Assembly (NCBI GenBank): GCA_030835135.1
Contig: JAUQWO010000019.1
Coordinates: 1-38,053 of the forward strand
Direction of reading: 5' to 3'
DNA from: Bacteroidota bacterium
GTDB lineage: Bacteria; Bacteroidota; Ignavibacteria; UBA10030; UBA6906
DNA length: 38,053 nucleotides
The position numbers were made by a program, and so were the translations under genes. Positions within the stretch are counted from its first letter, which is position 1; each line of letters begins with the position of its first letter. The notes beneath the pieces are model-generated. The model saw only the letters and a list, made by a program, of their open reading frames with translations. It had not been told where the DNA came from and did not search any database. Of the stretch, positions 18,801 through 33,148 are shown piece by piece.

Positions 18801-18837
18801 AACCATGTTGCACCCCACCCACATCCAGGAGAGAGGA

Positions 18838-19755
18838 ATGAACACTTCGCGTGAACGCCTGTTGCTGTTGTTGTGTGTGCTGATGGGAGGCTTTCTCCTG
18901 CTTGCTCCGCAGGCCAGCGCCCAGACGGAACTGGAAAAGGCCATTCAGCAGTACAACGCCAACTCCATCGGTGGCTATCTTCAGCCCATCGCGGATCTCG
19001 TTGGTGCAAATATGCATGCGGGATACTATCACTCGGCCTACATTCCCCAGAGTGGTTTTTCCATCGGGATCGATATCGTTGCCATGGGATCGCTGGTGAA
19101 GGATGAGCAGAAGACCTACACGGCTTCGGCTCCGGCCGGTTTTACGCCCGGCAGTTTCCAGACCGCGACGATCTTCGGCGGCAAGGGGACCGCGGTCACA
19201 CACCAGACGAACACCAGTCTGCAGTATAAAGGGAGCGACGGCATCTTCAATGTGTCCATGTTCCCCATGGCTGCGCCCCAGCTCCGCATCGGATCCCTCT
19301 ACGGGACCGAACTGGTTGTCCGTTTCCTTGCGACACCTTCGCTTGGCGAGAACAAGCTGCCGGTCCTGACGTTCTGGGGTGCGGGCGCCCGTCACAGTAT
19401 CAGCCAGTATATCCCGTACTGCCCGGTGGACATCGCCGCCAGCTTCTTCTATTCGAAATTCTCCTTCGGCGATCTGATCACGGCCAACGGTGTCGCATTC
19501 GGCGTGCAGGCGAGCAAGAGCATCAAGATCCTCATGCTGTACGGTGGCCTCTCCTATGAGAAGAGCACCATGGACCTGAGCTTCAAGACCACCGATCCGA
19601 CCTCCACGCCCCTCGTGGATGTGGCGCTCAACGGTGCGAACAAGTTCCGCGGTACCATCGGTGTTGGCGTGAACTTCGGGCTCTTCAAGGTCTTCGCCGA
19701 TGCCAACTTCGGCACGGTGACCAACTATTCGGGCGGTATCGGTTTCGGCCGGTAA
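18838..19755 (+). CDS. outer-membrane barrel-type protein, probably DUF6588 family
   Basis: A 305-aa exported protein: signal peptide with a long Leu-rich core ending at PQASAQ (about residue 27), a short helical region (TELEKAIQQYNANSIGGYLQPIADLVGANM), then Gly/aromatic-rich strands typical of Bacteroidota barrels, ending GGIGFGR. The opening (export signal, 'YLQPIADLVGANMHAGYYHSA') resembles DUF6588 proteins, which I recall as Bacteroidota-specific and uncharacterised; family call is moderate. Own promoter upstream. Followed 48 bp later by a small exported protein on the same strand. Confidence 0.75.
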   Translation: MNTSRERLLLLLCVLMGGFLLLAPQASAQTELEKAIQQYNANSIGGYLQPIADLVGANMHAGYYHSAYIPQSGFSIGIDIVAMGSLVKDEQKTYTASAPAGFTPGSFQTATIFGGKGTAVTHQTNTSLQYKGSDGIFNVSMFPMAAPQLRIGSLYGTELVVRFLATPSLGENKLPVLTFWGAGARHSISQYIPYCPVDIAASFFYSKFSFGDLITANGVAFGVQASKSIKILMLYGGLSYEKSTMDLSFKTTDPTSTPLVDVALNGANKFRGTIGVGVNFGLFKVFADANFGTVTNYSGGIGFGR

Positions 19756-20399: not shown

Positions 20400-21593
20400 A
20401 TGATGACGGGGGAACCGGTGAACATCCTCGGCATGAGCCGGGAAGAATTGCGGTCGTTCGCAGCGGAACTCGGCGAACGGCCCTACCGCGGCGACCAGGT
20501 GTACCAGTGGCTCTATGCCAGAGGTGCCACCGGGTTCGATGTGATGACCGATTGCGGACGGGCATTCAGGGAGACCCTGCATGCCCGTGCGCGTATCGCG
20601 GGTGTTGCCCAGGTGAAGAATCAACTCTCACCGGCCGACGGCACCACCAAGTTTCTCTTCGCTCTTTCTGATGGCTTGCAGATCGAAAGCGTCCTGATCC
20701 CTCCCTCCTCGGCCTTCGAGGGGGATGACCCCGGGGATGAAGAACCCCGGTCGTCCCGTGAACGCCTCACCCTTTGCGTCTCTACCCAGGTCGGTTGTCC
20801 GTTGGACTGCGCCTTTTGCGCCACCGGCACCATGGGGTATCTCCGCAATCTGACCCCCGGCGAGATCATCGACCAGGTGCTGACGGTCCGCCGCCTCACC
20901 GGCCGCACCATTACGAACGTGGTGTTCATGGGGATGGGCGAGCCGATGCTCAACTATGACGCCGTCATCCGTGCCGGTATGCTGATGACCGACGGGGCAG
21001 GCATCGCCGCACGGCGCATCACGGTCTCGACCGCCGGCTGGGCCGATGGGATCCGCCGCATGGCCGATGAACGCACGCGCATGAAGCTCGCGGTCTCGCT
21101 GCACAGCGCCGTGCCTGCGACGCGCGACGCGCTGATGCCCGTGACGCGCCGCTTCCCGCTGGATGCGCTGCGTGCAGCACTCCAGTATTATTACGCGCGG
21201 ACAAAGGTCCGCGTGACGTACGAGTACATATTCTTCGACGGGATCAACGACACGCCCCTGGAGGTGCGCCGCCTGATCGCCTTCGCACGTGCGATCCCGT
21301 GCAAGCTCAATGTGATCCCGTATCACGAGATCGGATTCGCGGGGCCGGAAGGCATCGGCGCTTCACTGCGCCCCTCGCCCCGCATGCATGAGATCGTCGA
21401 AGAACTCCGGCGCGCCAACCTGACGGTCATCGTCCGCAGCAGCGCCGGCGAAGATATCGCCGCAGCCTGCGGGCAACTCGCCGTGCAGGGCCTGCGCCGG
21501 TCACGGTCCGGACGTTCCACGCGGGGAGTACCCGACGCGGAACACGGCCCGCGCAGCATCGTCACCCAACACAGACACGACAGGCGTCCATGA
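20400..21593 (+). CDS. rlmN: dual-specificity 23S rRNA/tRNA methyltransferase RlmN
   Basis: Radical-SAM enzyme adding a C2 methyl to A2503 of 23S rRNA and A37 of some tRNAs. 397 aa. The radical-SAM cluster motif is C133-x3-C137-x2-C140 (CPLDCAFC); GMGEPMLNY and the C-terminal SSAGEDIAAACGQL with the mechanistic Cys are present. An acidic insertion (FEGDDPGDEEPRSS, about 106-119) sits just before the LTLCVSTQVG strand and is longer than in E. coli. Ends in a basic tail. Its TGA overlaps the adk ATG (ATGA). Confidence 0.96.
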   Translation: MMTGEPVNILGMSREELRSFAAELGERPYRGDQVYQWLYARGATGFDVMTDCGRAFRETLHARARIAGVAQVKNQLSPADGTTKFLFALSDGLQIESVLIPPSSAFEGDDPGDEEPRSSRERLTLCVSTQVGCPLDCAFCATGTMGYLRNLTPGEIIDQVLTVRRLTGRTITNVVFMGMGEPMLNYDAVIRAGMLMTDGAGIAARRITVSTAGWADGIRRMADERTRMKLAVSLHSAVPATRDALMPVTRRFPLDALRAALQYYYARTKVRVTYEYIFFDGINDTPLEVRRLIAFARAIPCKLNVIPYHEIGFAGPEGIGASLRPSPRMHEIVEELRRANLTVIVRSSAGEDIAAACGQLAVQGLRRSRSGRSTRGVPDAEHGPRSIVTQHRHDRRP

Positions 21594-22243
21594 AACTTCT
21601 TCTTTTCGGTGCCCCGGGCGTGGGGAAGGGCACCCAGGCAAAGCTCCTCGCCGATTACTATTCCATTCCACATTTTTCCACCGGCGATATGCTCCGCGCC
21701 GCCGTTGCCGCGCAGACCTACCTTGGCGTGCAGGCGAAGCAGCATATGGATGGCGGACGGCTCGTTCCCGATGAACTGATGATCGCGATGATCCGCGATG
21801 CGCTCGTCGGGCCGACGGCGAAGACCGGCTTCATCCTCGACGGCTTCCCGCGGACCGTGCCACAGGCCGAGACGCTGACGGTGATCTTCCATGACATCGG
21901 CGCCAGCGTGTTCACGGTCGTGAACATCGATGTGGATCCGGAACTCATCATCAAGCGGCTCAGCAGCCGTTTGATGTGTCCGAACGACGGGAAGATCTTC
22001 AGCAGCGAACTGATGGATGTCCGCCAGAACGGTCCCTGTCCGGCATGCGGCACCCCGCTCATCCAGCGTGTGGATGACCGTCCGGAGACCGTGCGGGAGC
22101 GCCTCGAGGTGTATAACGCGAAGACCGCCCCGGTGCTCACGTTCTACGAGAAGCTCGGTGTTGTCGTGACGGTCGATGGCAATGATACCGTCGATGCCGT
22201 CAACCTGAATATCCGCAACAAACTCAGAGCGCTGAAGCGGTGA
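21590..22243 (+). CDS. adk: adenylate kinase
   Basis: Interconverts AMP + ATP and 2 ADP. 217 aa, long-lid form. P-loop GAPGVGKGTQ at residues 7-16, the AMP site STGDMLR and the DGFPRT motif are all present. The LID (about 127-160) has Cys residues in LMCPNDGK and CPACGTP, consistent with a zinc-binding lid as in many Gram-positive and Bacteroidota enzymes. ATG overlaps the rlmN stop; its TGA overlaps the start of the next gene, so the three are one translationally coupled unit. Confidence 0.97.
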   Translation: MKLLLFGAPGVGKGTQAKLLADYYSIPHFSTGDMLRAAVAAQTYLGVQAKQHMDGGRLVPDELMIAMIRDALVGPTAKTGFILDGFPRTVPQAETLTVIFHDIGASVFTVVNIDVDPELIIKRLSSRLMCPNDGKIFSSELMDVRQNGPCPACGTPLIQRVDDRPETVRERLEVYNAKTAPVLTFYEKLGVVVTVDGNDTVDAVNLNIRNKLRALKR

Positions 22244-22977
22244 TGCTCGTGGCCGCACATCGGGGTGCTTCGGGACATGCGCCCGAGAACACGATGGCGG
22301 CCTTCCATGCGGCCGTCGTCGCCGGCGCGGACCTCATCGAGCTCGATGTCCGCTTCAGCAGCGATCTTGTCCCCGTTGTGATCCACGACCGTACGCTCGC
22401 CCGCACCGCGGGCGGGCGTGGCACGGTCGCCACCCTCTCCTTTGCGGACCTGTCCCGTCACGATGCCGGACGATGGTTCCATTCCCGGTTCGCCGGCGAA
22501 CAGGTGCCATCGCTCGCCAGCGTTCTGACCGGGATCCCTCCGGACATGGGCATCAACATCGAGGTGAAACCCGATGGCGATGCAAGGCCGCTGGCGCTCC
22601 TGGCAGACCGCGTGCGGGAAGAGATCCATACGCATCGCGGCACACGGCAGGTGCTGGTGTCGTCCTTTGATCATCGCTTCCTTCGCGCCTACCGGCATAG
22701 TGCGCCGCATGATCCGCTCGGGGTGCTTCTGCACCCCGTGCGCGATCTTGCCCGCCGCCCGGTGGCCATTGCGCGCCGATTGGATGCAGCGTATATTTTC
22801 TGCAGCCGTTCCCTTCTCCGCAGGTCCATGATCGATGCGGCCCATGACGCGGGGTTCGGCGTTGGCGTCTATACCGTGAACGCCACGGCTATGATCCCCC
22901 GGCTTGCCCGCTATGGGATCGATCTGGTCTTCACGAATTTCCCGGCGGAGATCCGGGCAGCACTGGAGCGCACCTGA
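22243..22977 (+). CDS. glycerophosphodiester phosphodiesterase
   Basis: Hydrolyses glycerophosphodiesters to sn-glycerol-3-phosphate and an alcohol. 244 aa TIM-barrel of the GDPD family. AHRGASGHAPENT at the N-terminus supplies the catalytic His/Arg, LIELDVRFSSDLVPVVIHDRTL the metal-binding Glu/Asp and second His, and INIEVKPD the third acidic site. No signal peptide, so cytoplasmic. Starts either at the GTG 22240 or the ATG 22243 overlapping the adk stop; ATG preferred. Ten bases separate it from the CHAT lipoprotein. Confidence 0.93.
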   Translation: MLVAAHRGASGHAPENTMAAFHAAVVAGADLIELDVRFSSDLVPVVIHDRTLARTAGGRGTVATLSFADLSRHDAGRWFHSRFAGEQVPSLASVLTGIPPDMGINIEVKPDGDARPLALLADRVREEIHTHRGTRQVLVSSFDHRFLRAYRHSAPHDPLGVLLHPVRDLARRPVAIARRLDAAYIFCSRSLLRRSMIDAAHDAGFGVGVYTVNATAMIPRLARYGIDLVFTNFPAEIRAALERT

Positions 22978-22987
22978 GGAGGAGACC

Positions 22988-25597
22988 ATGACCCGACCAA
23001 TGCTGTTCCCGCTGGTGACCGTCGCCGTCGCCGCGCTTATCCTCGCGCTCGGAGGATGCAGCGGTGGGGCGGAAGATACCACGACGCTGGACAGCGTTCT
23101 CACGCGGACAGAAGCGCTCGTTGAAGCCGGGAAGGACCGTGACGCACGGCAGTATCTGCATGCCGCGCTCATGACGCGCACGGACATCCGTGAGGGGAAG
23201 GCAACGGCAGCAGGATCGCGTATGCTTGCCGAGCTGTACACCGCATCAGCGTTCTACGACAGCGCGCACGTGTTCTACGAACGGGCCGCGGACGCGTACC
23301 GGGGACTCGCCCAGCGCGGCAATGCCTATGCCATGGTGATCGCAGCGGGAGAACTGGACATCCGTTCCGGCCGGCCCGACCGCGCGCGGCTTCAGTACGA
23401 GGAGGCGTTACGTCTCGCACAGGTGTTCGGCGACAGTGCTTCCGCGCATGCGCTGCGGCTGGCACTGATCCCGGTGTATGCGATGCTGGAGGACCGCGAC
23501 GCGGAACGCGATGCCCTGTCGCGGTTGTACACCACCGCGCGCTCGCATCAGGACCGCGGCGGTGAAGCAGCGATCGAGTACGCGGCCGGACTCGCGAGTG
23601 CCGGCCGTGGCGCGAACGACGAGGCGGCGGCAGCATTCCTCCGCACCGTAACGCTTGCGGACGGGGCTGGCGATTCCCTGCTGGCGACGAAGGCACTGAT
23701 GCAGGTGGGGATCGTACTGGACCGCACGGGTCAGACGCATGATGCGCTGGCCACGTTCGGGAGTGCCCTCTCGCGCTCGTCGCTTCTCCGGTACCACACG
23801 GACCTCGCGGCCGAATTGCTCGTCCGCGTCGGCAATCTCTATCTCCGCGGCCGCGACGTTGCCCAGGCCACGCGCTTCTTCCGATCGGCAGAGAAGATCG
23901 CGAATGCCTCACAGGATGCTCTGCTCGAAGCATATCTGATGATGCAGATGGGCCATGCCGCCCTTGCCACGGACAAAACCGCCGCGCTCCAGAGCTATCG
24001 TTCGGCCTACGACCAGTTCCGGTCGTTCCGGTATGCCCCGGGGACCGCATATGCGCTTTCGACCCTCGCAGCCGTCGCGGAGCGGGAGAACCGGCTCACC
24101 GATGCACTTCAACTTGCGACGGCCGCGGTTGCCGAGGAGGAACGGACTTTGGCCGTCCGCGCACCGTCGTCGCTGTACCGCGACTGTGAACGGTCCTCAT
24201 TGTTTGAACCCGACGAGGAACCGTCGCAACAGCTCGTTGCCCTCCTCCTTCAGTTAAGCAGGACCGACGAGGCCTTCGTCGCGCAACAACGGCGGAACTC
24301 TCGGGCCATGATGCGGCGGTTGAGTCCGGGTGTGTTCAGGACCGGCGCAGCGGATCCGGATTCCGTGCTGGCGTTCTGTGCCGATCAGCAGGCCCTGCAT
24401 CGCGGTGCGGAATGGCAGCAGGAGTTCGTGCTGACGCGAGCATCGTCGCATATCACGGTGCGCGAAGACATCCTTGGCGTGATGGAGCGTACGAGGACCG
24501 GCGTGGCGGAGGCAGCAGAGGATCTTGTGCGCCTCGCGCCAGCGTTCCTGCCGCTTGCGCGGGTGTCGGGAGAGATGCCGGCCGATGTGCAGAAACGTGT
24601 GCCGCCGAACAGCGCACTGCTCACGTTCATTCCCGGAAGACGATCCGTCTCCGTTGTGGTCATCACCCCGGCGGGGAGCACGGTCCGCGTGTCCATTCAG
24701 CCGGTGGCAAAGATCGTTTCCGCGATCGAGGCCTACCTGTCGGCGTTGCGCGCGCAGACTGTTGATGGTGAAGGGGGAGGGAAGCCCAAACCTGCCCAGG
24801 GGGTGGAACTGCAAACGCTCACACGGACGCTGTACGAAGCATTGCTCCTGCCGGTGGATCCGTTGCTGAAGCCCGGGACGCGTCTGTTCGTGTTGTTCCC
24901 CGAGGGGATGCCGCCGTTCCCGATCCATGCGTTGCGGCGGGCACCGATGCCGGGTTCGCCGTATCTCATCGAGCGGTTCCCGGTGCAGTACCTGACGGAC
25001 CTGCGCTTCCCGTCCGTCCATACGCCGGCTGTTCCCACGGTGGTCGCCTGTGCGGGCTTTGCCGGGTCGTCGACGTGGGATGTGGAGTACGAGTTGCGGG
25101 ATGTCCGGTTTTTCTTCAAGGATGCCCGGATGCTGTTCCACCGGGACGTGACGCTGGATTCCGTCCGCGCGGTGCGTTCGGATGTGCTGCACTGCGCACT
25201 GCAGATGCAGTTCGGCGTCCGGTCACCATTGGCGGGCAGGTTCTTCCTGTCGGATGGCGCATCGCAGGAAGGGGGTCATGCGTATCCCCTGACCACGCTC
25301 ACGACGTTCCCTTCCGCGCGGATCGTGGTGATGTCGTCGCTCACAGCGGGACTGCCGTCCTTCGATCCGCTGGTACCGTTCGCACTCGGGACGAACGGCA
25401 CGGGATCGATCGTCATGAACGTGTTCATGCCGACGCGTGGTGCGAAGAAAGCGTTCGGGGAATTGTTCTATACAGCGTTGTTGCAGGGACTGACCGCGGA
25501 GGACGCGGTGCAGAAGGCACAGGTGGAGATGATCAGGGGGAAGCAGTTTGCCACGCCGGCATCGTGGGCAGGGTACATGGCGTGGACCATGAATTAA
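22988..25597 (+). CDS. lipoprotein with TPR-like repeats and a degenerate CHAT domain
   Basis: 869 aa. The signal ends in LALGGC with the lipid Cys at 24, so it is anchored in a membrane. Residues about 35-430 are TPR-like helical repeats. The C-terminal third has the full CHAT (caspase-like) pattern: the strand before the catalytic His reads VLHCALQMQF, the strand before the catalytic Cys reads RIVVMSSLTAGL, and the end has the usual LLQGLTAEDAVQKAQ and SWAGYMAW. In active CHAT proteins these read HxATHG and LSACETG; here His is Gln739 and Cys is Leu785, so protease activity is very unlikely. GAGGAGGAG lies before ATG 22988. Likely a scaffold or pseudoenzyme of envelope function. Confidence 0.88.
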   Translation: MTRPMLFPLVTVAVAALILALGGCSGGAEDTTTLDSVLTRTEALVEAGKDRDARQYLHAALMTRTDIREGKATAAGSRMLAELYTASAFYDSAHVFYERAADAYRGLAQRGNAYAMVIAAGELDIRSGRPDRARLQYEEALRLAQVFGDSASAHALRLALIPVYAMLEDRDAERDALSRLYTTARSHQDRGGEAAIEYAAGLASAGRGANDEAAAAFLRTVTLADGAGDSLLATKALMQVGIVLDRTGQTHDALATFGSALSRSSLLRYHTDLAAELLVRVGNLYLRGRDVAQATRFFRSAEKIANASQDALLEAYLMMQMGHAALATDKTAALQSYRSAYDQFRSFRYAPGTAYALSTLAAVAERENRLTDALQLATAAVAEEERTLAVRAPSSLYRDCERSSLFEPDEEPSQQLVALLLQLSRTDEAFVAQQRRNSRAMMRRLSPGVFRTGAADPDSVLAFCADQQALHRGAEWQQEFVLTRASSHITVREDILGVMERTRTGVAEAAEDLVRLAPAFLPLARVSGEMPADVQKRVPPNSALLTFIPGRRSVSVVVITPAGSTVRVSIQPVAKIVSAIEAYLSALRAQTVDGEGGGKPKPAQGVELQTLTRTLYEALLLPVDPLLKPGTRLFVLFPEGMPPFPIHALRRAPMPGSPYLIERFPVQYLTDLRFPSVHTPAVPTVVACAGFAGSSTWDVEYELRDVRFFFKDARMLFHRDVTLDSVRAVRSDVLHCALQMQFGVRSPLAGRFFLSDGASQEGGHAYPLTTLTTFPSARIVVMSSLTAGLPSFDPLVPFALGTNGTGSIVMNVFMPTRGAKKAFGELFYTALLQGLTAEDAVQKAQVEMIRGKQFATPASWAGYMAWTMN

Positions 25598-25638: not shown

Positions 25639-26517
25639 CTACCGGCGGCGTACTTTGATGCTGCCGAGTCCGGAGTCGATGTTGATGTTCATCCGTCCCT
25701 GGGCCTTATGATAGTTCGATGAGATGTACTGATTCTCACCGTCGGGTTGAAAGTCCTGATCGCAATCCAGGCGCGAGACCCAGCTATTCTCATAGATGAT
25801 CCGGGCGCCGATCTCTTCCGGGATGATGATCGTGACGAGCCCCAGGCCCACCTCGATGTCCACGTCCACTTCGTTCTTCAGTGCCCCGCCGAAGTCGAGC
25901 GTATAGGATCCCATCCCACCCTGGAAGCGGAGGTGGCGGAAGTTGGCGTTGCCGAGGTTGCGTGCGTCGAACTTGCTCACCCCCGACTCGATGTTCATGT
26001 TCTCGATCGTTCCGTCGTTCTCCTGGTCGAACGCAAGCGTGACATCGCTGGCGCCGGTGGAGAGGTTGAAGTCCTTCACCTGCAGGCCGGACAGATTGAA
26101 ATCGCCCCGGCCCACGCCCAGTTCGATTTCGAACGAGATCGGGATCGCATCGGTGAATTTCAGGAACCACTTTCCTTTGTCGAACCGGTCGAGGTTGAAG
26201 GAATAGTGATTGCCGTTCTTCTCCATCTTCTGTTCGCCGAGCGTCATCTCCAGGAACCCGATGCGGTTCCGGATGGCGTACTCGACATCCATCACATTGC
26301 TTTCTTCCTTCTCGGAGGAGGCTTCGGCGGTGAGGATCTTGCCCGACTCTCCCCGTCCGATCAGCACCGTGCCGAACGCGGAGGAAAGGTTGACCTTCAG
26401 CTCCTTCTCGGTGGTGCGTCCGATCTCGCGGTTGACAGCCCCCTTTTCTCCGGAGAGGGCGGGGGTGGCCGCAAGGAGAGCCGTACAGGCCAGCGCTATG
26501 ATGGGTACTGAACGCAT
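25639..26517 (-). CDS. exported beta-helix (toast-rack / LiaF-like) protein
   Basis: 292 aa. Signal peptide (MRSVPIIALACTALLAATPALS) then a conserved N-terminal segment (VNREIGRTTEKELKVNLSSAFGTVLIGRGES) and a run of short parallel strands (GDFNLSGLQVKDFNLSTGASDVTLAF, IESGVSKFDARNLGNANF, GGMGSYTLDFGG) as in the toast-rack/DUF2154 and LiaF C-terminal beta-helix domains. Ends with VDIEVGLGLVTIIIPEEIGARI and GLGSIKVRRR. Such domains are linked to envelope-stress and adhesin-like roles, but no partner is proven here. It follows the ECF sigma gene by 142 bp, and is likely its target or partner. The AACATT / TACTAT pair at 26531-26558 is a weak candidate ECF promoter. Confidence 0.78.
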   Translation of the reverse strand: MRSVPIIALACTALLAATPALSGEKGAVNREIGRTTEKELKVNLSSAFGTVLIGRGESGKILTAEASSEKEESNVMDVEYAIRNRIGFLEMTLGEQKMEKNGNHYSFNLDRFDKGKWFLKFTDAIPISFEIELGVGRGDFNLSGLQVKDFNLSTGASDVTLAFDQENDGTIENMNIESGVSKFDARNLGNANFRHLRFQGGMGSYTLDFGGALKNEVDVDIEVGLGLVTIIIPEEIGARIIYENSWVSRLDCDQDFQPDGENQYISSNYHKAQGRMNINIDSGLGSIKVRRR

Positions 26518-26659
26518 GGTGTTCTCTTTAATAGTACGGCGGCCCATCCGGGAATGTTGCACGGGCAGCGGGTCCGGTATGTGGTCCGGCCATGGACCGG
26601 CGTCACGGGAAGCAGGAAACAGCCGGACGACCGGTGCCATGCCGGGGATGCCGGCCGTG

Positions 26660-27319
26660 TCAGTAGTGCCGGATCTGATGGCGAAGTTGCTTATACAGAA
26701 GCTCGCGGGCACGGAAGATATGGGCCTTGACGGTCCCGATCGGCAGTTTGAGCATATCCGCGATCTCTTCATAGGACCGTTCGTCGCTGTGGCGCAGCAT
26801 GATCACGCGGCGGTATTTTTCGGGGAGCTGATCGATGGCGGATTTCAGCATCACCGCCCGCTGGTCACTGATCAGCTCTTTGTCCGCTTCGTAGGAATCG
26901 TCAGGGAGTTCGAAGGTGTAGTCGCTGTCCTTCGATTCTATCGGCTTGTCGATCGAGTACATCTGCAGCTTCCGCTTGCGGATGTAATCGATGGAATTAT
27001 TGGTGGCGATCTTGTACAGCCACGTGGAAAAGGCGAACTCTTCGTTGAAATTCTTCAGTGAAGCGAAGGCCTTGATGAACGCCTCCTGGGTCAGGTCCTC
27101 CACCTGCTCCCGGTCGTGTACCATGCGGAAGATGAAACTGAAGATGGCATCGTGGTACTTCTTCATCAGCCGGGTGTACGCCGCATCATCACCGCCGAGG
27201 GCCTCCTTGATGAGCTGGGAGTCCTCGGCACGGGAGTCCAACCGTCTCTGTTCCCTGGGATCAACGGAAGGGGCGGGTGCCGGACGGGACATCTGGGATG
27301 TGGATCGGGTGCGGGGCAT
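26660..27319 (-). CDS. ECF-type RNA polymerase sigma factor
   Basis: 219 aa. After a variable Pro/Arg-rich N-terminus (about 35 residues) come sigma region 2 (DAAYTRLMKKYHDAIFSFIFRMV, EDLTQEAFIKAF, FSTWLYKIATNNSIDYIRK) and region 4 (DQLPEKYRRVIMLRHSDERSYEEIADML, PIGTVKAHIFRARELL). Regions 1.1 and 3 are absent, so it is an ECF factor. Directs transcription of a stress or envelope regulon. No anti-sigma gene adjoins it; the neighbour is a beta-helix exported protein. Promoter at 27332-27360 predicts a leader of only about 6 nt before ATG 27319; no Shine-Dalgarno. An internal ATG at codon 10 is an alternative. Confidence 0.93.
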   Translation of the reverse strand: MPRTRSTSQMSRPAPAPSVDPREQRRLDSRAEDSQLIKEALGGDDAAYTRLMKKYHDAIFSFIFRMVHDREQVEDLTQEAFIKAFASLKNFNEEFAFSTWLYKIATNNSIDYIRKRKLQMYSIDKPIESKDSDYTFELPDDSYEADKELISDQRAVMLKSAIDQLPEKYRRVIMLRHSDERSYEEIADMLKLPIGTVKAHIFRARELLYKQLRHQIRHY

Positions 27320-30697: not shown

Positions 30698-33082
30698 CTA
30701 TCGCAGCAGGATCAGCGTCCGCGTTTCCATGACGTCTCCGTTGCCGCTTCTGCCCGAGGGGACAGATTCCGGATGGTGGACCCGTATCCTGTAGAAGTAA
30801 ACCCCGCTTGATAGTCCCGCCCCGTCGAACCGGACCTCATATCTTCCGGCAGTCTTTCTCTCATCCACGAGTACTGCCACTTCCCGTCCAAGCAGATCGA
30901 ACACCGCGAGCTTCACATGGCCGCTGACAGGAATCTGATAACCGATCGTCGTTGTCGGGTTGAACGGATTGGGATAATTCTGCAGAAGTGCGAAGGCCAC
31001 GGGCGCAGAAACAGGCACGTGCACCGGCGTGTCATCGAGTATCGCCTTGATCTCTGTCATGGGGCGGTACCAGATCCGGTCGCTGGCCTCCGTGAGGGCC
31101 ACAAGGTATTCCGGGGAAGCGGTGATCACAACGATGGAGTCCGTGGTGAGTTCCCCGGAAACATCCTTCCACGAGAGGGGGTCGGGGCGTGATGCGAAGA
31201 CGTGACCGTTCTGCAGGGCGAAGAGCACGCTGTCCGATTCGATGATGCGGTCAACGGATAGGCCGGTGAAGCCCGCGGGCGTCCATGTCGTGCCATGGTC
31301 GGTCGATGCGTACAGGCCACCTGGGTCGCCGGGGATGATCGCGGGGACGACATGAGCGAACAGCCGTCTGTTGCTGGTGTGCAGGAGCTTGAACCCCGGG
31401 ACGGGGGAAATGCTTCCCGGCGGCGTGTAGTACGGATAGGTGCCGTTGTAGGTGAACGGATCCCACGTTTGTCCGTCATCGGAGGAACGAAGCGCGGAGG
31501 TCAGCGACGCGGCATACATCACCGAATCCATTCCCATGAGAGGGTCGAAGATCTTTCCGTTCGCAGGAAGTGTGATGGTGGACCAGGTCCTGCCGGAGTC
31601 GAGGGAGCGGTGCATGCCCCAGCACGGTCCGTACGCGAAGGTGATGTACATCTGGAATCCCGGTCCGTCCGGCTGTCTGCGGAACGTCACCCCGGAAAGT
31701 GTGGTGCGGGTGAAGTCGGCACGGGGTTCGACCTCATCACTCCATGTGGTTCCTCTGTCGGTGGAAAGGTGATATCTGAACTTGTCGTGGTCTCCCTTCC
31801 CCGTTGTGAAGAGAAGGATGTTGTCATCGTGCTGAGCGGCAAAATACTCGAAGCGAAATGACCGTGAGATGAAGTTTGGTGTGGCGGGGGTCGTGGTCCA
31901 GGTTCTTCCGAGATCATCCGTCCAGCTCACTGCCGAACAGAGATCACCGGCACCGGTGCCGTGTGAGTAGGCTTCTTTGAGCGAATAGTGCTCATTGCTC
32001 ACGGTGAAAAGCCGGGTTGTCGGCCCGCCAGAGGAGAACGATGCCGCATACAAAGAACTCACCAGCGGTGTCGCGCCATCGCTCGTGAGATGCCAGAGTG
32101 AGCCGCGATCGAAGGAGCGATAGATACCACGGTCCGTAGCCACAAAGAGAATGGTGTCTCTGGCGATGATCGCATTGATGCGCAGGCTCTTCAGCCCCGT
32201 GTTCAACGGTTCCCACACAGTGCGCGCCGGGTCATACCGCCAGATCCCCGCATCGATGGTGCCGGCGTAGAGGGATCGTCCACCGCTGAGCGGAACGGAC
32301 GCGAGACTGATGATGTCGGTCGAAGGGAGGCCTGTCCCAAGCTGTATCCAGCTCGAACCCGCATCGGATGATCGCGAGATGCGGCCGGTGCTTTGGGCGG
32401 CAAAGAGTGTATCGCCGTGCGCTGCCAGTGCATGGACGTGAAGCGGACCGAGTCCAGCGTTGCTGACAGTCCAGTGCGATCCGTCATCGGTGGCACGAAA
32501 GATGCCGCCACCGAGCGTTCCCGCAAAGAGGGTTTGCCCGCTGTCGCCTGGTGCCGGGATCGTTGCGAAGGAGGTGACGTGCAGGTCCGTGAGCCCATCA
32601 TTGCACGTGGTCCACGTCTGCCCCTGATCCGTGCTTCGCCGAACGCCGCCGCCGTCTCCGCCAAGATACCAGGTCGAGATCGTATCCCGTGTGGTGGATC
32701 CGACCGCCCGGATGTCGTCATCCAGGCCTTCAACCGCCTGCCGGTACCAGCTCCACATATTCTTCTTGAGGAAGCATCCTTTGCTGGTCCCGCCGACCGG
32801 CATGCCATCGAGAATGCCGAGGCAGAACCCTGTATAGTCCATCGGCATACGCCATTTCACGATGATCCAGGTCGACCCGTTGTCGGTGCTCTTGTGGAGT
32901 GCGCCGGGGGAACCAAAGGCGAAGAGCGTGCTGTCCGCCACGGCGAGGGCATGGAATTCCATCCCGGACCGGTCGAAGGACTGCCATTGAGAGTGCAGAG
33001 GCGTCTGAGGAACCACGGAAAGGAGCAGGACGGCAACAAGGATTCGACTGACGGAACGACGAAGACGAATGGAAGAGTCCAT
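30698..33082 (-). CDS. T9SS-secreted Asp-box beta-propeller protein A
   Basis: 794 aa. Signal peptide (to about residue 31, ending LHSQ) is followed by a propeller made of at least nine Asp-box motifs (S-x-D-x-G-x-T-W; e.g. STDNGSTW, STDQGQTW, SSDDGQTW, STDHGTTW), as in sialidase/sortilin/photosynthesis-stability folds. The C-terminus is a type IX sorting domain: NYPNPFNPTTTIGYQIP, AVFDLLGREVAVLVDE and GVYFYRI, so it should be exported to the surface or released after cleavage. ATG 33082 follows AGGGGGG. An additional repeat-poor tail (HPESVPSGRSGNGDV) interrupts the usual end of the domain. Tandem paralogue of the gene at 33149, 66 bp upstream. Confidence 0.88.
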   Translation of the reverse strand: MDSSIRLRRSVSRILVAVLLLSVVPQTPLHSQWQSFDRSGMEFHALAVADSTLFAFGSPGALHKSTDNGSTWIIVKWRMPMDYTGFCLGILDGMPVGGTSKGCFLKKNMWSWYRQAVEGLDDDIRAVGSTTRDTISTWYLGGDGGGVRRSTDQGQTWTTCNDGLTDLHVTSFATIPAPGDSGQTLFAGTLGGGIFRATDDGSHWTVSNAGLGPLHVHALAAHGDTLFAAQSTGRISRSSDAGSSWIQLGTGLPSTDIISLASVPLSGGRSLYAGTIDAGIWRYDPARTVWEPLNTGLKSLRINAIIARDTILFVATDRGIYRSFDRGSLWHLTSDGATPLVSSLYAASFSSGGPTTRLFTVSNEHYSLKEAYSHGTGAGDLCSAVSWTDDLGRTWTTTPATPNFISRSFRFEYFAAQHDDNILLFTTGKGDHDKFRYHLSTDRGTTWSDEVEPRADFTRTTLSGVTFRRQPDGPGFQMYITFAYGPCWGMHRSLDSGRTWSTITLPANGKIFDPLMGMDSVMYAASLTSALRSSDDGQTWDPFTYNGTYPYYTPPGSISPVPGFKLLHTSNRRLFAHVVPAIIPGDPGGLYASTDHGTTWTPAGFTGLSVDRIIESDSVLFALQNGHVFASRPDPLSWKDVSGELTTDSIVVITASPEYLVALTEASDRIWYRPMTEIKAILDDTPVHVPVSAPVAFALLQNYPNPFNPTTTIGYQIPVSGHVKLAVFDLLGREVAVLVDERKTAGRYEVRFDGAGLSSGVYFYRIRVHHPESVPSGRSGNGDVMETRTLILLR

Positions 33083-33148
33083 ATCCCCCCTGAGAGTGTA
33101 GTTGACAATAATATACTGTGGAAAATGGTGCTCTGCCACTGTCGGCTG

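Follow-up and report, generated by a model that had tools for sequence, protein, structure and literature searches.

The window, i.e., the whole stretch of 38,053 nucleotides analyzed here, encodes a TPR-containing protein (hereinafter pseudoCHAT) that is best interpreted as an envelope pseudoprotease, likely to bind partners or to serve as a scaffold. This protein has a CHAT fold, the catalytic dyad of which is lost across the order, and a conserved anchor cysteine; it belongs to a single clade, and its CHAT domain is conserved above its TPRs. Given that nearly all relatives within the order share the loss of the dyad, the shape of a caspase-type protease has probably been retained for a role in binding or signalling and not for cleavage. 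The gene and its parts are located as follows:

22988..25597, +, TPR-pseudoCHAT lipoprotein gene, 869 aa (ORF, Pfam, AlphaFold2 model)
22988..23059, +, lipoprotein signal peptide with the lipobox LGGC24 at its end (Cys aligned in all covering orthologues, 69/69)
23075..24142, +, TPR superhelix, about residues 30-385 (Pfam, model, structural matches)
24569..25594, +, CHAT region, residues 528-869, Pfam core 611-865 (Pfam, model, structural matches, hhalign)
25202..25204, +, codon of Gln739, the catalytic-His position (alignments)
25340..25342, +, codon of Leu785, the catalytic-Cys position (alignments)

The open reading frame starts with an ATG behind a strong Shine-Dalgarno sequence (GAGGAGGAG-acc-ATG), 10 bases after the stop of the upstream GDPD gene. 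The N-terminus of the protein (MTRPMLFPLVTVAVAALILALGGC24) combines a signal peptide with a lipobox, as is typical of bacterial lipoproteins, and Cys24 is aligned in each of the 69 orthologues that reach this column; the lipoprotein signal implied by the first-pass annotation is thus borne out, and the residue numbering used there (Q739, L785) is correct.

The Pfam CHAT profile (PF12770) matches residues 611-865 with 67.2 bits (cut-off 24; E 2e-18), and the N-terminal part gives sub-threshold matches to TPR_12 and TPR_2. Approximately 10 TPRs precede the CHAT domain, which is the TPR-CHAT architecture. In a Foldseek search with the AlphaFold2 model, which was built on a 44-sequence alignment (pLDDT 90.4, pTM 0.88), DdvA, separase and Csx29 rank first, and a second structural aligner gives a VIA Z of 25.4 to Csx29 (8d9f) and a Z of 23.7 to separase (5fc2; rmsd 3.4 over 303 residues), so that the fold of the domain is caspase/separase-like. 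Together, the profile score, the model and the matches to Csx29 and separase imply that the CHAT assignment is not due to chance, and the profile match, combined with an hhalign probability of 99.9% to other CHAT domains, supports the homology proposed from the sequence and descent from a CHAT-fold ancestor. Against PDB sequences, phmmer with the pseudoCHAT protein yields weak TPR matches only, including BamD (YfiO; E 0.013), and the CHAT profile finds, among CHATs, Csx29 alone (E 0.06-0.09), leaving DdvA unmatched by sequence. PADLOC reports a generic weak TPR match alone and no CHAT defence family.

Alignment of 45 CHAT domains of the family with 17 other CHAT domains, in most of which the dyad was verified, spans 325 columns (hhalign probability 99.9, E 2e-35) and pairs DVLHCALQ with DLLHFATH and VVMSSL with VTLSAC, which means that Gln739 occupies the catalytic-His column and Leu785 the catalytic-Cys column. 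In the model, each of these residues directly follows a beta-strand (E733-738 and E779-784), i.e., occupies the place expected for the dyad. The MAFFT alignment with the dyad-bearing CHAT protein of the same genome (HLATHG / VCYAG) matches up the His column but displaces that of the Cys, which was therefore assigned from the hhalign comparison and the model; because the structural aligner gives no residue pairing, the position of the dyad in three dimensions is likewise derived from secondary structure and the profile alignment. The loss of both catalytic residues, which had been noticed from the sequence alone, is thereby confirmed, and with Q739 and L785 the protein lacks the His-Cys dyad of the active CHAT peptidases of clan CD and is predicted to be inactive. 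The second CHAT protein of this genome (L001; G000:C34:38220-39050, minus strand), in which the ATHG/Cys dyad is intact and the C-terminus includes a hydrophobic segment, and which has a long branch in the tree, serves as an internal control for the loss.

The dyad loss is not confined to this genome. Searching the contigs with the pseudoCHAT protein alone gave no match; with the family alignment, 58 loci were found. Orthologues are present in 75 of the 98 genomes and in 44 of the 55 genera of the order, mostly one per genome; most of the genomes are MAGs, and contig ends cut off some of the loci. Column 739 is occupied by E (32), D (15), Q (8) and, in G077, a single H, and column 785 by Q (23), L (15), V (10), I (8) and, in G062, a single C; none of the orthologues covering both columns has a His-Cys pair. 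A private loss is accordingly rejected, and the finding that the loss is family-wide strengthens the original claim. A separate PF12770 search of the same genomes guarded against sampling look-alikes only. Among the other CHAT proteins with loci, the dyad was recognized in 20 by pattern and in five more by inspection (L204, L211, L213, L225 and L227); the dyad of L228 is ambiguous, and L229 is a fragment. In the phylogenetic tree, 36 pseudoCHATs form one clade as opposed to 31 dyad-bearing rows, with a branch support of 100/100 and recovery in 100% of 200 bootstrap trees, and families f1, f4, f5 and f6 are subclades within it; G077 and the class-level row L191 have long branches. This topology fits a single loss of the dyad followed by vertical descent. 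Class-level members of the family that belong to another order (f9) are likewise without the dyad. The dead CHAT of L191 has a Peptidase_S8 gene after it. Many f5 and f6 genomes additionally encode a second family of about 800-846 aa with weak CHAT matches (profile positions about 60-202, about 30 bits; e.g., G026:C54:58737-59138).

The neighbourhood of the gene includes the following:

18805..19755, +, DUF6588 protein, predicted outer-membrane beta-barrel (Pfam, predictions, locus comparison)
20400..21593, +, rlmN, with which the overlapping run rlmN-adk-GDPD-pseudoCHAT begins (ORF, Pfam)
21590..22243, +, adk (adenylate kinase), overlaps the GDPD gene (ORF, Pfam, locus comparison)
22240..22977, +, GDPD gene, 10 bases upstream of pseudoCHAT (Pfam, locus comparison)
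25639..26595, -, LiaF-like secreted protein, convergent to pseudoCHAT (Pfam, locus comparison)
26660..27319, -, ECF sigma factor, upstream of the LiaF-like gene (Pfam, locus comparison)

The genes from rlmN to pseudoCHAT overlap or nearly abut. Counting only loci with room for the respective neighbour, GDPD is present in 46/62 loci and adk in 41/55. GDPD neighbours pseudoCHAT in f1, f4 and f5 and is found near it in class-level f9 loci; in family f6, adk-GDPD is missing (0/10 and 0/13 loci with room). The adk-GDPD context named in the first-pass annotation is indeed co-directional here but is not the most conserved one, and this linkage is a lineage-specific context. The most widely shared neighbours, present in all four families, are the LiaF-like gene (61/66 loci with room), the ECF sigma factor (57/64) and DUF6588 (49/66). 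DUF6588 is predicted to form a beta-barrel, its best fold matches being outer-membrane barrels with low TM-scores, and is adjacent to pseudoCHAT in another order, too. Our literature search found no mention of DUF6588. Strict co-occurrence of DUF6588 with pseudoCHAT is rejected: DUF6588 is common in f2 genomes without pseudoCHAT, so the pairing is not obligate. One f2 genome keeps the locus without the pseudoCHAT gene, which indicates that this gene is dispensable in some lineages, and in G001 the genes for DUF6588 and the LiaF-like protein are immediate neighbours, pseudoCHAT being absent from between them. The place that pseudoCHAT has in the relatives, between DUF6588 and the LiaF-like gene, is taken in G081 by a subtilase whose tail is of the T9SS type (L237:2360-5338, minus strand); a T9SS-type sorting tail is also present on a large secreted protein encoded at positions 30698-33139 (minus strand) of the window. 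The T9SS was rejected as a discriminating partner, with SprA present in 96 of the 98 genomes of the order.

It appears moderately likely that pseudoCHAT is a vertically inherited lipoprotein of the envelope that binds partners without cutting them, with DUF6588 as the likeliest partner, and is a subunit of an outer-membrane complex. Under this scenario, the CHAT domain would have lost its His-Cys dyad before the radiation of the order, with vertical inheritance of the family thereafter. After export and lipidation, the protein would sit on a membrane of the envelope, probably the outer membrane, where the TPR groove and the remodelled face of the former active site, with an acidic residue or Gln at 739, Asn/Asp at 784 and an aromatic residue at 740, might bind protein partners with no cleavage. 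The DUF6588 barrel would be the likeliest of these partners, and pseudoCHAT itself a structural or assembly subunit of the complex. Counting against the choice of DUF6588 is the equally strong conservation of the pair of LiaF-like and ECF sigma factor genes.

The conservation of the latter pair in all four families and the ranking of the anti-sigma factor DdvA (8rw5, 8rot) at the top of the Foldseek matches bring up another, unlikely role, namely, that of an envelope sensor: by analogy with DdvA, the lipoprotein would detect the state of the envelope and signal to the convergently encoded ECF sigma factor, with either the LiaF-like protein or some unseen anti-sigma factor as the intermediary. 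However, pseudoCHAT starts with a lipoprotein signal and has no cytosolic anti-sigma domain, the sigma factor operon is convergent with the pseudoCHAT gene rather than co-transcribed with it, and the sigma factor and LiaF-like genes stay in place at loci that lack the lipoprotein gene (G001, G020, G081 and G011); furthermore, the whole-protein TM-score to DdvA is only 0.24. A broader variant, which we regard as quite unlikely, is an order-wide system for envelope signalling or assembly in which the lipid-anchored dead CHAT would read the state of the DUF6588 barrel and report to the ECF sigma/LiaF-like pair; if real, such a system would amount to a pseudoprotease version of DdvA that operates outside CRISPR and phage defence.

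The pattern of sequence constraint bears on whether the CHAT domain itself matters. Across the order, the mean pairwise identity is 33% in the CHAT domain, the best-conserved part of the protein, compared to 23% in the TPRs, whereas the two catalytic columns fall in the 41st and 29th percentiles of conservation in pseudoCHATs vs. the 99th and 100th in the comparison CHATs. The combination of a best-conserved domain with variable catalytic columns suggests that a non-catalytic function was retained, as opposed to decay. Ordinary decay, whereby the CHAT domain would be a degenerating tail and only the TPRs of the lipoprotein would matter, is very unlikely and already disfavoured: apart from the difference in identity, Pro622, Tyr668, Gly690 and Phe823 are nearly invariant, and the open reading frames remain full-length across the order. 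What speaks for decay are the class-level TPR lipoproteins L187-L190, with similar N-termini and C-termini that align poorly to CHAT, and the absence of a CHAT match in L188, the one of the four that was scanned. These proteins may be a further degenerate branch; in L187 and L189, the next gene resembles those for TonB-dependent receptors. Finally, it is most improbable that pseudoCHAT is still an enzyme with an active site re-made from other conserved residues, such as S783-N/D784, E/D739 and H647: polar residues close to the former site are indeed conserved (N/D at 784 in 65/68 and S at 783 in 56/68), but both columns are variable, with no new His-Cys or His-Ser pair fixed there, and the position of H647 is also His in Csx29, so that this residue is probably structural.

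CHAT proteases have so far been studied mostly as active defence effectors, and our literature search returned nothing relevant on CHAT lipoproteins or inactive CHATs. In the envelope lipoprotein described here, the CHAT fold is apparently exported and lipid-anchored, with the dyad lost once and the domain then conserved order-wide above its TPRs. The pseudoCHAT family is therefore a natural system for asking what the caspase fold does without catalysis, and its conserved neighbourhood points to testable partners.

Among the known systems, Csx29 of craspase (type III-E CRISPR; PDB 8d9f, 8eex) resembles pseudoCHAT in that a CHAT domain follows its TPR superhelix (Z 24-25 over approximately model residues 187-869). 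Csx29 is an RNA-activated protease bound to Cas7-11 (PMC9729208, PMC10028731). In contrast, pseudoCHAT contains a lipobox and lacks both catalytic residues, and the scanned neighbours (pseudouridine synthase, DUF6588, rlmN, adk, GDPD, LiaF-like and sigma factor genes) include no cas gene. Separase (PDB 5fc2, 5fby) shares the fold of the protease domain but is eukaryotic and catalytically active. In the pseudo-orthocaspases, proteins with a caspase fold that occur in cyanobacteria among other bacteria, Tyr and Ser stand in place of the HC dyad (PMC6426788); unlike pseudoCHAT, they are of the orthocaspase p20 type and are not TPR-CHAT lipoproteins. TPR-CHAT lipoproteins that keep the dyad come from the same class: L198-L201 combine a lipobox, TPRs and a C-terminal CHAT, as pseudoCHAT does, but retain an intact ATHG/SACQT dyad and lie outside the pseudoCHAT clade. 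Upstream of L201, an ORF with SGHG and DACHSG motifs encodes a second caspase-like protein. These four proteins and the transmembrane location of DdvA, the top fold match, make the earlier statement that active TPR-CHAT proteins are cytosolic too strong. In DdvA, the transmembrane anti-sigma factor of Myxococcus xanthus (PDB 8rot, 8rw5), the periplasmic part is reportedly a TPR-CHAT with an incomplete His-Cys site, and the protein reportedly works with an ECF sigma factor. As a whole, DdvA superposes poorly on the model (TM 0.24), and it possesses a transmembrane helix and a cytosolic anti-sigma domain, whereas pseudoCHAT opens with a lipoprotein signal, with no cytosolic domain before it, and is predicted to be held by a lipid anchor.
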